Shown here: positions 2,732-6,728 of the stretch, piece after piece | Position numbering within the stretch: the first letter of the stretch is position 1 | How the letters are laid out: every line of letters begins with the position of its first letter | Origin: an uncultured Verrucomicrobia subdivision 3 bacterium | GTDB lineage: Bacteria > Verrucomicrobiota > Verrucomicrobiae > Limisphaerales > CAMLLE01 | NCBI GenBank assembly: GCA_946480555.1 | Contig: CAMLLE010000172.1 | Span: 1 to 6,728 of the forward strand | Direction of reading: 5' to 3' | Length of the DNA stretch: 6,728 bases | Program-made: the position numbers and the translations under genes | Notes under the pieces: generated by a model | Seen by the model: the letters and a program-made list of their open reading frames with translations, nothing else | Database searches by the model: none | What the model was told of the DNA's origin: nothing

Positions 2732-2846
2732 GTAGGGCAGGCCTTCCAGCCTGCCGGTTGACGGGACTTTCCAGCCCCGTGTCGGACGTATGGAATCTGG
2801 CAGCTGGAAAGCCGCCCGAACCGGCAGACAAGAATGTCTGCCCTAC
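2732..2846. repeat. REP/BIME-like element, four hairpins with inverted GTAG ends (intergenic)
   Basis: This 115-bp element is bounded by GTAG (2732-2735) and CTAC (2843-2846). Left arm: hairpin GGCAGGC/GCCTGCC (2736-2742 with 2749-2755, seven perfect pairs), then a second hairpin ACGGGAC/GCCCCGT (2761-2767 with 2774-2780, one mismatch). Right arm, inverted: GGCAGAC/GTCTGCC (2823-2829 with 2836-2842, seven perfect pairs) and GGCAGC/GCCGCC (2799-2804 with 2811-2816, one G-T pair). The outer stems of the two arms differ by a compensatory G-C to A-T change. A GTAG foot followed by a palindrome is the hallmark of REP units moved by RAYT transposases. Paired inverted units are called BIMEs. The element begins 16 bases past the mutS stop, so it should fold in mutS mRNA and could act as a 3' stabiliser or terminator (inference). 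Confidence 0.75.
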
Positions 2847-2861
2847 AGAATCCACAATCTT

Positions 2862-5600
2862 TCATCCAAACAAATCCAGCTGCGGCGCAGGTGCGAGCTT
2901 CTTCAGTTTCTCGCGATCCTGCTGGCGCCGCGGCTGGCGCACGTTGCCTTCCGGAGTGAGTTCGGATTCTTCGAGGTTCCGCAGAATCTCCTTCGCACGT
3001 TCCAGCACCGGTTTCGGCACGCCCGCCAGCCGCGCCACCTGAATGCCGTAGCTTTTGTCCGTGCCACCTTCGACAATCTTTCGGAGGAACACGATCGAGT
3101 CGTGCCATTCGCGCACCGCGACGTTGTAGTTCTTGATGCGCGGCAACCGCGCCGCCAGTTCCGTCAACTCGTGGTAATGCGTGGCGAACAGCGTCTTCGC
3201 GCCGACTTGATTGTGCAAATGCTCGACAATGCTCCACGCCAGACTCAAGCCGTCGAACGTGCTCGTGCCGCGGCCAATCTCATCCAGCACGATCAAGCTT
3301 CGCGGCGAGGCGTTGTTCAAGATGTTCGCCGTCTCGCTCATTTCGACCATGAACGTGCTCTGTCCGCGCGCCAGGTCATCGCTCGCACCGATGCGCGTGA
3401 AAATGCGATCCACGAGATCCACGCGCGCCGATTTGGCCGGAATGAACGAACCGGTATGCGCCAGCAATGCGAGCAGCGCGACCTGGCGAATGTAAGTGCT
3501 CTTGCCCGCCATGTTCGGGCCGGTGATCAAAGCGATTTGGGGAAGCTCTGTAGCAGCGGCCATCCTGGATGCTGTGGAGGGCGGCATCCTGCCGCCCGAA
3601 TCGGAGGTGGACTGCGAAGCGGCGCTTGAATCTGCATCCGCATTGGAAAACTTCCCACCACTTCCGCCAGGCTGGAAGCCCGGCTCCACGGCAGGCAGGA
3701 TGCCTGCCGCTACACCTAATCCGGTGTCATTCGGCACAAACCGTTCATCCACGAGATTCTGCTCCAGCACGGGATGACGTCCGTCCGTGATCGCAAGAAC
3801 GCCCTCGTCCGCAACTTCCGGGCGCGCATAGCTGTAGAGCCGCGCCGTTTCCGCGAAACAACCAAGCACATCCAGTTGGGCCAATGCTGCCGCAGTCCGC
3901 TGAATCGCCGGCAACTGCGCCAGCACGGCTTCGCGGATGCGCTGGAAGAGTTCGTATTCCAGTTTCACGCTGCGTTCCTCCGCGCCCAGAATCTTGCCCT
4001 CCATTTCCTTCAACTCGGGGGTGATGAAGCGTTCGCCATTCGCAATGGTCTGCTTGCGAATGTAATGCGCGGGAACCTTGTCGAGATTCGATTTGGTAAC
4101 TTCGATGTAATAGCCGAAAACGGAATTGAACCGCACCTTCAACGACGTGATGCCGGTGCGCTCGATCTCGTCCGCCTGCAACTTGGCGATCCAATCCTTG
4201 CCGCTGCGCTGCGCATTCCGAAGTTCATCGAGCGACTCGTCGAAGCCATCGCGAATCATCCCGCCTTCCTTAACGGCCAGCGGCGGTTCATCGGCAATGG
4301 CGCGGGAAATCAGTTCGACGAGGTCGGGCATCTCCGTGAGTTGCGAATGCAATTCCATCAGGAGCGCGGGCGGCCCGCCCGCGCGATGCAATTCCTCACG
4401 AATCTCCGGGAGCTCATCCGACTCAGCCTGCGGAAAGGTTGCAACCCGCTCGCCGTAATCCAACGTTTGCCGCACGGTCGGAATTTGCGTCAGCGCCTGC
4501 CGCAGCATCACGAGATCGCGCGCGTTGCCCGAGCCGGAGCTAAGCCGGCCAATCGTGCGTTCCAGGTCTCGGATCTCCGCCAGCCGCACGCGCAGCGCAT
4601 TCAGCATCGTGGAATCCGAGACCAGCAGCCCTACGGTTTCCTGCCGCCTGCGAATCGCGTCCACAGAAGCGAGCGGTTGCGACAGCCAGTCGCGCAACCG
4701 GCGCGCGCCCATGGGTGTAACGGTGCGGTTCATCGCGCCGTAAAGGCAGGCATTGCGCGGCGCGTCGTGATGCAGCGGCTCCAAAATTTCCAGATGCCGC
4801 AGCGTGGTGTAATCCAGCGCAAGGAAATCTTTGCGCTGATAAAACGAGATGCGCGTCAGGTGCGCAACATCGCGGCGAAGGTGCTGCGTAAGGTAATGCA
4901 GAATTCCGCCGGCCGCGCCTATGGCTGCGCTGCGATCCTTGAGCCCGAAACCGTCCAGCGCGGCGACTTTGAAATGCTCGCGCACCGTGAACAGCGCCGT
5001 TTCCGGAGCGAACACCCAATCATCGTAGCCGTTGAGAATCGGGAACGATCCTGCCAGCAATTCGCGCACGCGGCCGTTTTCCTGCGGCAGGATGATTTCC
5101 GCCGGACGCAACCGTTCTAGTTCCGTGAGCAGCGCGGCGTCGCTCTCAACTTCGGTCGTGAGGAAATCGCCTGTCGTGAGGTCCGTGAACGCCAGACCCA
5201 AAACTTTGCCGTTGGGAAAGACCGCGGCGAGAAAGTTGTTTCGCTCCGCCGTGAGCATGCGTTCGTCAAAGTGCGTTCCCGGCGAAAGGATTTGTGTGAC
5301 CTCGCGTTTGACGAGCTGGCCAGGCTTGGCTTCTTCCACCTGATCGCAAATGGCGACTTTCCGGCCCGCTTTCAGAATGCGGGCGATGTAGCCATTGGCG
5401 GCGTGAAACGGGATGCCGCACATCGGCACCACACCGCGTTTGGTGAGCGCGACATTGAGGATTTGCGCGCCGGCCTGGGCGTCTTCGAAAAACATTTCGT
5501 AAAAATCGCCGAGCCGGAACAGCAGAAGCGCATCCTTCGGCAGCTCGCCCTTGATGCGGCGATACTGCGCCATCATCGGTGTCAATTGCGCTTCGGCCAT
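2862..5600 (-). CDS. mutS: DNA mismatch repair protein MutS with an in-frame repeat-derived insert
   Basis: MutS detects base mismatches and small loops in DNA and recruits MutL in an ATP-dependent way. The gene is complete at 912 residues; E. coli MutS has 853. Seen in order: mismatch-binding domain I with the GDFYEMF motif (31-37, F33-x-E35 being the mismatch wedge), connector domain (about 120-250), core and clamp domains (about 270-580), and the ABC-type ATPase domain. That domain has Walker A GPNMAGKS (694-701), the conserved STFMVEMSE segment (748-756), Walker B LIVLDE (769-774) and the following GRGTSTFDG. The last residues, QLDLF (907-911), match the beta-clamp-binding consensus. Residues 630-684 are an extra low-complexity stretch, rich in Gly, Ala, Ser and Pro, encoded by a REP-like element just upstream of Walker A. 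Conserved motifs resume intact after it, so the protein is probably active. The ATG at 5600 is placed correctly for the family (MMAQYRRIK at 9-17), though no clear Shine-Dalgarno precedes it. Confidence 0.97.
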   Translation of the reverse strand: MAEAQLTPMMAQYRRIKGELPKDALLLFRLGDFYEMFFEDAQAGAQILNVALTKRGVVPMCGIPFHAANGYIARILKAGRKVAICDQVEEAKPGQLVKREVTQILSPGTHFDERMLTAERNNFLAAVFPNGKVLGLAFTDLTTGDFLTTEVESDAALLTELERLRPAEIILPQENGRVRELLAGSFPILNGYDDWVFAPETALFTVREHFKVAALDGFGLKDRSAAIGAAGGILHYLTQHLRRDVAHLTRISFYQRKDFLALDYTTLRHLEILEPLHHDAPRNACLYGAMNRTVTPMGARRLRDWLSQPLASVDAIRRRQETVGLLVSDSTMLNALRVRLAEIRDLERTIGRLSSGSGNARDLVMLRQALTQIPTVRQTLDYGERVATFPQAESDELPEIREELHRAGGPPALLMELHSQLTEMPDLVELISRAIADEPPLAVKEGGMIRDGFDESLDELRNAQRSGKDWIAKLQADEIERTGITSLKVRFNSVFGYYIEVTKSNLDKVPAHYIRKQTIANGERFITPELKEMEGKILGAEERSVKLEYELFQRIREAVLAQLPAIQRTAAALAQLDVLGCFAETARLYSYARPEVADEGVLAITDGRHPVLEQNLVDERFVPNDTGLGVAAGILPAVEPGFQPGGSGGKFSNADADSSAASQSTSDSGGRMPPSTASRMAAATELPQIALITGPNMAGKSTYIRQVALLALLAHTGSFIPAKSARVDLVDRIFTRIGASDDLARGQSTFMVEMSETANILNNASPRSLIVLDEIGRGTSTFDGLSLAWSIVEHLHNQVGAKTLFATHYHELTELAARLPRIKNYNVAVREWHDSIVFLRKIVEGGTDKSYGIQVARLAGVPKPVLERAKEILRNLEESELTPEGNVRQPRRQQDREKLKKLAPAPQLDLFG
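3550..3713. repeat. REP/BIME-like element inside mutS, translated in frame
   Basis: This 164-bp element has inverted GTAG (3550-3553) and CTAC (3710-3713) ends. Left arm: CAGCGGCC/GGATGCTG (3554-3561 with 3567-3574, one mismatch and one G-T pair), then GGGCGGC/GCCGCCC (3579-3585 with 3591-3597, perfect). Right arm, inverted: CGGCAGGC/GCCTGCCG (3689-3696 with 3702-3709, perfect eight pairs) and CCAGGC/GCCCGG (3667-3672 with 3678-3683, one G-T pair). The two arms share TGTAGC, CATCCTG and GTGGAG blocks at identical spacing while the stem halves between them differ. The layout matches the intergenic element at 2732-2846: GTAG, hairpin, short linker, hairpin, then mirrored. The spacer is longer here (3598-3666). 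Read on the mutS strand it is open throughout and encodes residues 630-684. Confidence 0.8.
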
Positions 5601-5709: not shown

Positions 5710-6728
5710 ATGAAAATTCTCGCTGTGGTCTGGATGTTGGGATTCGTCATGCTGCGACTGGCAGCCGCGCCGGTGGCGGATTACGAACGCGCCAAGGCGG
5801 AGGCGGAAAAACTCTTTGCCGAGCAATCCTTCGAGCAGGCGCATGGCATTTACACCTCACTGAGCCTCACCAACCTGCCGCCAGAGGAGCAGCGCTGGGT
5901 GCAATTCCGCCGCGCCGACACTTCCTGGCGTTCGCAAGCCGCCTCCCCATCTGCCGACAACACGCGGGCTGAACAAGCGCGGCGCGAACTCGAATCGCTC
6001 GTGCGCGACGTGGAACGCCAGGAGGAGCGCGACCGCCTCTGGGCCGAGGTTCACGAGGCGCTGGGGGATTTTTTCTGGTTGGACGCCGGTCGCCACAACT
6101 GGGGTGGAGCCTGGCCGCATTATGAGAAAGCGCTGGATTGGTGGGCGGGCGCCCACGATGTCGAGCTCGCACGCGAACGTTACCTCGGCATCGTCTGGCG
6201 GATGGCCCGTCCGCCCGGAGCGGCGCGCAATTTCTATTACGGACATTGGGGCAATTTCATTCCGCTGCCCGTGCTCGAGAATGCGGTGAAGATCGCGGAT
6301 TCAGCCAATGACAAGGCGCGAGCCAGTTATCTCGTGGCCATGACGCTGTTCCGCCAGGGCGGCTCGCCCGAGCAGCGCGCGCGCGTGGCCGAAGCCTTCG
6401 AAGCAGCTCTGGCGGGCGGCAAAACGACGGAATGGTATGACGACGCGCTGTTCAATTACGCGACCTGGATGAGCAGTTCCGGCGAAGTCATTCCGCTGGC
6501 GGAAGGCGGCTGGCGCGAAGAACCGGATTATCCGAAGGCGCTGGAACTGTTCCGCCGGCTGGTGCGCGAATTCAACAAGGGCGAATCGCGCTATTACGAT
6601 CAGGCCGAGCAGCAGATCAAGAACATCACCGAATCGCAGCTTCAGGTTTCTGTGCCGCACATTTTCCTGCCTGACTCGGAGATTCAATATCACCTCCACT
6701 GGCGCAATGTCCGCCAGATCGAACTCGC
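5710..6728 (+). CDS. Secreted TPR-like protein, probable N-terminus of a bacterial alpha-2-macroglobulin; C-terminus beyond window edge
   Basis: The gene is open at the right edge, with 339 codons visible. An AAGGA Shine-Dalgarno three bases upstream supports the ATG. Residues 1-20 form a Sec-type signal peptide: K2, a hydrophobic core LAVVWMLGFVML, then LAAAP with a likely signal peptidase I site around residues 19-21. There is no lipobox cysteine. The protein should enter the periplasm or be exported. Residues about 24-300 are helical and TPR-like, for example ERAKAEAEKLFAEQSFEQA near the start and YPKALELFRRLVREFNKG towards the end. After that, the sequence turns to beta-strand character: QLQVSVPHIFLPDSEIQYHL followed by HWRNVRQIEL. 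This resembles the first macroglobulin-like domain of large bacterial alpha-2-macroglobulin proteins, which are thought to trap proteases in the cell envelope. The thioester and bait regions would lie outside the window, so the family call is inferred. A plain TPR secreted protein is the alternative. Confidence 0.6.
   Translation, partial: MKILAVVWMLGFVMLRLAAAPVADYERAKAEAEKLFAEQSFEQAHGIYTSLSLTNLPPEEQRWVQFRRADTSWRSQAASPSADNTRAEQARRELESLVRDVERQEERDRLWAEVHEALGDFFWLDAGRHNWGGAWPHYEKALDWWAGAHDVELARERYLGIVWRMARPPGAARNFYYGHWGNFIPLPVLENAVKIADSANDKARASYLVAMTLFRQGGSPEQRARVAEAFEAALAGGKTTEWYDDALFNYATWMSSSGEVIPLAEGGWREEPDYPKALELFRRLVREFNKGESRYYDQAEQQIKNITESQLQVSVPHIFLPDSEIQYHLHWRNVRQIEL

Follow-up and report, generated by a model that had tools for sequence, protein, structure and literature searches.

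This locus raises the question of how a palindromic repeat comes to be translated inside a conserved DNA repair protein, and whether such a case stands alone. The window, meaning the whole stretch of 6,728 nucleotides that was analysed, carries a mutS gene for which a preliminary description had proposed a REP/BIME-like element read through in frame beside the ATPase core. The features on which the argument rests are the following.

2732..2846, no strand assigned: intergenic palindromic element with GTAG...CTAC ends, immediately 3' of the mutS stop codon; fold z -5.8
2862..5600, reverse strand: mutS, 912 codons, open throughout, with five MutS Pfam domains and the NCBIfam MutS equivalog
3498..3521, reverse strand: Walker A motif GPNMAGKS, intact, MutS residues 694-701
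3550..3713, reverse strand: translated palindromic element of family F1 with GTAG...CTAC ends, MutS residues 630-684; full-length relatives in other genomes
3559..3572, reverse strand: decayed fourth hairpin close to the 3550 end, seen in the sequence, with no stem of at least 7 pairs
3579..3597, reverse strand: hairpin 3, 8 bp stem, loop GGA, in GGRMPP (stem search)
3666..3684, reverse strand: hairpin 2, 7 bp stem with one mismatch, loop TCC, in PGFQPGG (stem search)
3689..3709, reverse strand: hairpin 1, 9 bp stem, loop TCC, on the AGILPA side (stem search)
4365..4463, reverse strand: second length-variable MutS loop, residues 380-412, where relatives carry repeat families

Apart from the insert, the protein is, as modelled, an ordinary MutS. 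MutS domains I-V and the ATPase motifs are all present according to Pfam, NCBIfam and the structure model, and both the sequence and its translation give exactly residues 630-684 for the in-frame element and 694-701 for Walker A, as had been described. Fold and domains are like those of the E. coli and T. aquaticus proteins. The difference lies at the site of the insert: alignment to E. coli MutS breaks at window residue 628 (E. coli 603) and restarts at 689 (E. coli 609), and about 60 window residues replace five in E. coli MutS (604-608). An AlphaFold2 model built on an alignment of 66 diverse MutS proteins has a mean pLDDT of 87.7, with target-normalised TM scores of 0.87-0.93 to E. coli MutS chains among the best 20 matches. 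The sole stretch with pLDDT below 50, counting segments of three or more residues, comprises residues 637-672. In the model it is flanked by strands 624-629 and 689-693, the latter leading to Walker A, and the earlier suggestion that the insert is probably a disordered loop agrees with this prediction. A model with a mean pLDDT of 51.7, based on P0001 and 43 close relatives, was discarded. A divergent ORF of 339 codons adjoining mutS (window 5710-6726) runs off the window and is without a Pfam or NCBIfam match.

At the DNA level the element is bounded by inverted GTAG tags, GTAG at 3550-3553 and CTAC at 3710-3713. Its fold is far stronger than those of shuffled sequences (DNA z -4.8, RNA z -5.9), with none of 200 shuffles as good in either case, and three of the six frames through it are stop-free, the used frame among them. 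The view of a REP/BIME-like element next to an ATPase core whose motifs are intact is thus borne out by the GTAG ends, the fold z of -4.8 and the five Pfam domains. Four hairpins had been proposed; three clear stems of 9, 8 and 7 bp are present, and the fourth is degenerate, with no stem of 7 or more pairs. A likeness to the intergenic element had also been proposed. That element is real (z -5.8), but it shares with the mutS element just one 29-nt stretch, in inverted orientation and with 79% match, and from this comparison we class it as related in type, not identical. No family reaches the gathering threshold in an Rfam scan. Two further observations concern the same stretch of DNA. Nine perfectly paired base pairs around a 3-base loop form a palindrome at 4364-4384 in the second MutS loop, which over its whole length has a fold z of only -1.45; the palindrome may be the remnant of a repeat at a site occupied by repeat families in relatives. 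Between the delta' gene and an MFS transporter (1030-1075) there is another short GTAG-containing repeat, with 22 BLAST matches in a 3.2-Mb pool of fetched loci.

The loop was followed through 320 genomes of the order to which the genome of locus L001 belongs (Verrucomicrobia subdivision 3), of which 301 have a MutS match. The window gene and those of 111 matched genomes make up 112 readable mutS genes; the 111 were taken from those ranking highest by match to the window MutS, so the expanded fraction is not that of a random sample. Measured from RHPV to just before ITGPN, the loop is expanded (38-86 residues) in 68 of the 112 and empty (29-30 residues) in 44. Three further loci (L121, L170 and L190) end before or inside the loop and stand outside this count. 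There are no stop codons inside the loop in the 68 expanded genes; one in-frame TGA was found outside the loop, in the mutS of G218 (L093). The insert had been presented as unusual, and it is instead one instance of a loop that is expanded in most of these genes by many repeat families. Nor is a long loop unique to the window MutS in alignment, since among the 120 listed relatives it is measurable in 119 and long in all 119. A set of 80 loci includes six from genomes of the order; of the remaining 74, 70 are readable. In 69 of these 70 the loop has 28-31 residues, and in the last (L006) the extra length lies entirely ahead of the loop, so that beyond the six loci assigned to genomes of the order no long loop was found at the MutS site among the 70 readable loci.

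The DNA of the inserts folds as that of the window does in a large share of the expanded genes. Over 66 of them the mean fold z is -2.6, while 198 matched segments taken from these genes average -0.1; z is below -3 in 30 of 66 inserts and in 2 of 198 control segments, and below -2 in 36 and 8, respectively. It had been reasoned that relatives with a long loop lacking palindromic DNA would speak against the proposal, and 30 of the 66 expanded loops indeed miss z -2, which suggests that some of the loops have eroded or come from another source. Yet the 36 of 66 against 8 of 198, together with the dispersed copies described below, make decay or other repeat types a better explanation of the non-folding loops than chance.

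From their sequences, the occupants of the MutS loop are many unrelated repeat families. We labelled them F1-F17 with regular expressions devised by eye from the loop translations, those for a larger set of 233 rows being looser than those for a smaller one of 113; unassigned loops make up 50 of the 233 rows and 24 of the 113. GTAG...CTAC ends are found in F1 (the window family), F2, F4, F6, F9 (in L098) and F11 (in L103), and the translated signatures include TGxxPVS...DRRDACPT for F2, GSPLPA for F4 and GRESA...QSRLTSAA for F6. Families F5, F8 and F10 have GGAG...CTCC ends, and F12-F15 are made up of seven-base tandem units and are not REPs. Some loops look composite by eye: in L092 a tandem repeat sits in the middle of an F6 repeat, and L102 has an F7-like left half and an F12-like right half.

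The families occur well beyond mutS. At an E value of 0.001, F6, F1 and F2 are matched in 26, 20 and 15 of 30 filled-loop genomes, and F4 is matched in 21 of 32 genomes at 1e-6. For F1 there are 49 matches in G150 and 16 in G001, both genomes of relatives, in counts where one palindromic place may be scored more than once. Matches to the window element span all 164 bases (query 1-164) in G079, G086, G041, G150 and others, which implies that the mutS insert is a whole element. A lack of further copies in the genome had been named as a second point that would speak against the proposal; copies are carried by relatives, and in the window itself the related intergenic element is the one companion. 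Where the loop belongs to F1, F2, F4 or F6, further copies were found in the same genome in 11 of 13 searched genomes. In G241 the mutS copy is the only F6 match, and for G077, with an F1 loop, no copy outside mutS appears among the matches listed. In the 1.3-Mb local pool, 31 of the 66 expanded loops have no relatives of their insert. Supply of repeats seems to matter for occupancy to judge from F6, which is matched in 26 of 30 filled-loop and 16 of 30 empty-loop genomes (median 8.5 and 1 matches), a comparison that ignores kinship and takes its query from a filled loop.

Insertion into coding sequence is not confined to mutS. We placed 94 F1, F2 and F6 copies in the fetched loci, which are best matches and were not drawn at random: 40 are outside any ORF of at least 150 codons, 9 in mutS, 38 inside other ORFs of at least 300 codons and 7 in ORFs of 150-299 codons. 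A Pfam family was found in 19 of the 20 long repeat-bearing ORFs that were scanned. Among the repeat-bearing ORFs are those for UvrB, DnaE-type polymerases, CarB, HsdR, FeoB, an anthranilate-synthase-type enzyme, GatB, GcpE and polynucleotide kinase-phosphatase. Among full-length copies in genes other than mutS, 24 of 32 fall into the same length class modulo three, compared with 2 of 11 non-genic copies (leaving out five copies in shorter ORFs and eight mutS rows); such sharing among genic copies is what would be expected if both flanks are truly coding. Two genomes (L282 in G234 and L283 in G075) have an F1-type element at matching positions, residues ~461-516 of the ORFs, in a DnaE-type polymerase III alpha subunit.

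How quickly the occupant changes can be judged against the MutS backbone. Leaving out the two variable loops, we built a quick tree of 113 MutS proteins, on which the empty and expanded states require at least 16 changes, 10 of them forced by well-supported branches. Each named family with at least two rows is about as scattered on this tree as shuffled labels, the families being small, whereas the labels taken as a whole are scattered less than after shuffling (52 and 61 changes). In the larger set, for which a FastTree phylogeny of 233 rows was used, common families are partly clustered; F1, for example, has 22 rows and 15 changes. The reduced scatter and the partial clustering point to some inheritance of occupants. 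We then counted pairs sharing a family among the 135 rows of the larger set with a named family, with the reservation that pairs are not independent. Below a backbone distance of 0.02 substitutions per site 17 of 20 pairs share their family; at 0.02-0.05 the count is 12 of 26 and at 0.05-0.1 it is 44 of 256. Successive bins beyond 0.1 give 195 of 1103, 282 of 1968 and 447 of 4198, and at distances of at least 0.5 there are 130 of 1474. The drop from 17 of 20 among near-identical proteins to 44 of 256 at 0.05-0.1 argues for fast turnover, and in both the 113-row and the 233-row sets occupancy is nearly species-specific. The MutS loop therefore behaves like a landing pad for selfish DNA, with an occupant that changes quickly between species.

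The same behavior is found at other loops and in other proteins. Near residues 380-412 MutS has a second recurrent site, which holds 17 of the 25 pool matches to the loop library in ORFs of at least 100 codons; one further match of the 25 lies elsewhere in MutS, and the match pool is centred on mutS and favours this gene. Rarer MutS insert sites lie near residues 133 and 188. From the fetched loci 24 of 29 UvrA and 23 of 28 LeuRS proteins were usable, and inserts with z below -2 are present in 12 of the 24 and 14 of the 23, mostly at one or two preferred loops in each protein; some LeuRS inserts are plainly not repeats. MutS is not comparable in this count, since its 30 selected genes contain the insert, a large part of which was counted as core. 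The main GyrB has no insert of at least 8 residues in any of 30 genomes. The preliminary description had called a tolerated insertion in a core repair ATPase unusual, yet UvrA and LeuRS have comparable recurrent sites; with these beside MutS, the inserts are a property of permissive loops in the order and not of mismatch repair.

Several observations were made along with these protein surveys. In G086 a second, weaker GyrB-type gene (C44:15851-17809) exceeds the others in length by about 55 codons, possibly through a similar insert. G077:C3, G079:C3, G086:C5 and G082:C197 have open frames of 1,920-2,051 codons that include several UvrA-type stretches and suggest fused double UvrA proteins. PolA was dropped as a control, since in 28 of the 29 genomes that match it the match covers only the 5' exonuclease part (roughly within model positions 1-304); full-length PolA was seen only in G128.

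We consider it probable that the insert is a dispersed GTAG-ended palindromic repeat of the REP-dimer or BIME-like type that entered mutS stop-free at a permissive loop. By this account palindromes would insert widely, and purifying selection would retain only those insertions that are in frame and at loops the fold can ignore. Older occupants would be deleted, eroded or overwritten by newer ones, and the translated loop would be mostly a neutral decoration of the protein. It is very unlikely that we are dealing with an ordinary fast-evolving GC-rich linker in which hairpins arose by chance. The 30 of 66 long loops without a strong fold would suit such a linker, but the z of -4.8 of the window element, the full-length matches to dispersed elements in relatives' genomes and the near absence of comparable folds in segments of matched length from the same genes (z below -3 in 2 of 198) would not. 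We give hardly any credence to an assembly or binning artefact of metagenome contigs. Many of the records are labelled MAG, and L121 ends in a G-rich run within the loop; against this, P0002 has the same length, stands at 100% in the table, differs in two loop residues and has its own public sources, the long loops of the 119 measurable relatives come from several sources, and the 68 expanded loops are free of stops.

Two other explanations accept the repeats and differ on why they are there. The inserts might be selected, in that longer disordered loops or hairpins in the mRNA tune MutS activity or expression and hence the mutation rate; the mRNA hairpins might also slow translation, as had been suggested. 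The site is near Walker A in sequence, and PMC3733652 reports REP inserts in many repair genes and speculates on a mutator role. We regard such selection as improbable, because the occupant is not conserved, LeuRS, which is not a repair gene, shows a like pattern, and occupancy tracks the repeat load in the F6 comparison (26 of 30 filled against 16 of 30 empty, kinship ignored and query from a filled loop). A DNA-level hotspot is possible, though doubtful: a resident element would be the preferred target of the next palindrome through nested insertion or recombination, and turnover would reflect target preference more than protein tolerance. The nested or patched-looking occupants of L092 and L102 (by eye) and the nearly species-specific occupancy fit this, as does the description of REPs as IS insertion targets in PMC3733652. 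On the other side, the occupants include families with different ends as well as non-palindromic tandem repeats, and independent loops in UvrA and LeuRS have the same pattern, which points to loop tolerance as what they share. A bolder proposal is that certain loops (that before Walker A in MutS, the second MutS loop, and those of UvrA and LeuRS) are true landing pads, at which a targeted or self-reinforcing DNA process inserts, loses and replaces palindromes faster than the backbone evolves, giving each protein a near species-specific disordered tag with possible effects on repair; we think this rather unlikely. The sequences are best read as selfish GTAG-type REP dimers and other dispersed repeats that would be tolerated and translated at permissive loops, like the Rickettsia palindromic elements (RPE) and published intragenic REPs.

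What was a curiosity, a REP within a gene, becomes a countable system, with one site defined at the codon level, more than a dozen families and an empty state for comparison; a MutS match is present in 301 genomes, and 111 of these have been read. It offers a natural measure of the rates at which selfish palindromes are gained and lost inside conserved proteins and reveals which protein loops tolerate them. The older suggestion that REPs in repair genes act as mutators can be tested against the LeuRS and GyrB controls.

The mutS element shares marks with several known kinds of repeat. Its inverted GTAG ends and short stem-loops are those of GTAG REPs (dimer or BIME-like), its inverted ends would also suit a MITE, and its in-frame position within a conserved protein gene, in open frames, is characteristic of RPE. 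REPtrons, in which a RAYT/Y1 transposase is flanked by REPs, are a further point of comparison. Y1 transposase matches were found in 27 of 30 genomes, and many of 30 Y1 loci have palindromes near the gene, as REPtrons do; these palindromes differ from the families found in MutS. Loop-library repeats occur in 5 of the 30 transposase loci, about 300 bases or more from the gene where placeable, and none lies next to the gene in the 30 loci, so that no link between RAYT/Y1 and the MutS-loop repeats was found there. In loci L375-L404 many Y1 transposase genes have their own nearby palindromes, with stems starting CCCGGCG or CCTGGGGC, unlike those of the MutS families.

RPE are the earlier precedent for in-frame palindromic repeats. 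Likened by description only, they and the MutS-loop repeats are both palindromic and in frame within genes, and PMC3733652 mentions RPE in these terms. They differ in belonging to another phylum and in that the MutS site has many families and turnover. The closest likeness is to GTAG-tagged REPs and their dimers, for which Di Nocera et al. (2013, PMC3733652) describe copies in frame within repair genes, Opitutus terrae (Verrucomicrobia) being among the species concerned. By that account recB of two Xanthomonas species carries different REPs at about the same site, and except for recB the REPs of that gene category sit at different sites; mutS is absent from the main text. A search of the literature, with limited reach into subscription journals, brought up no paper on repeats in this MutS loop, and none on multi-family turnover there. 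The REPs of that paper and the MutS-loop elements are alike in their GTAG tags, hairpins, inverted dimers, high copy number (seen for the window family in relatives) and in-frame copies in repair genes. REPs within genes are thus already known, and what is new is a single protein loop with many families and fast turnover: in contrast to the published REPs, the one loop is filled anew by many families within an order.
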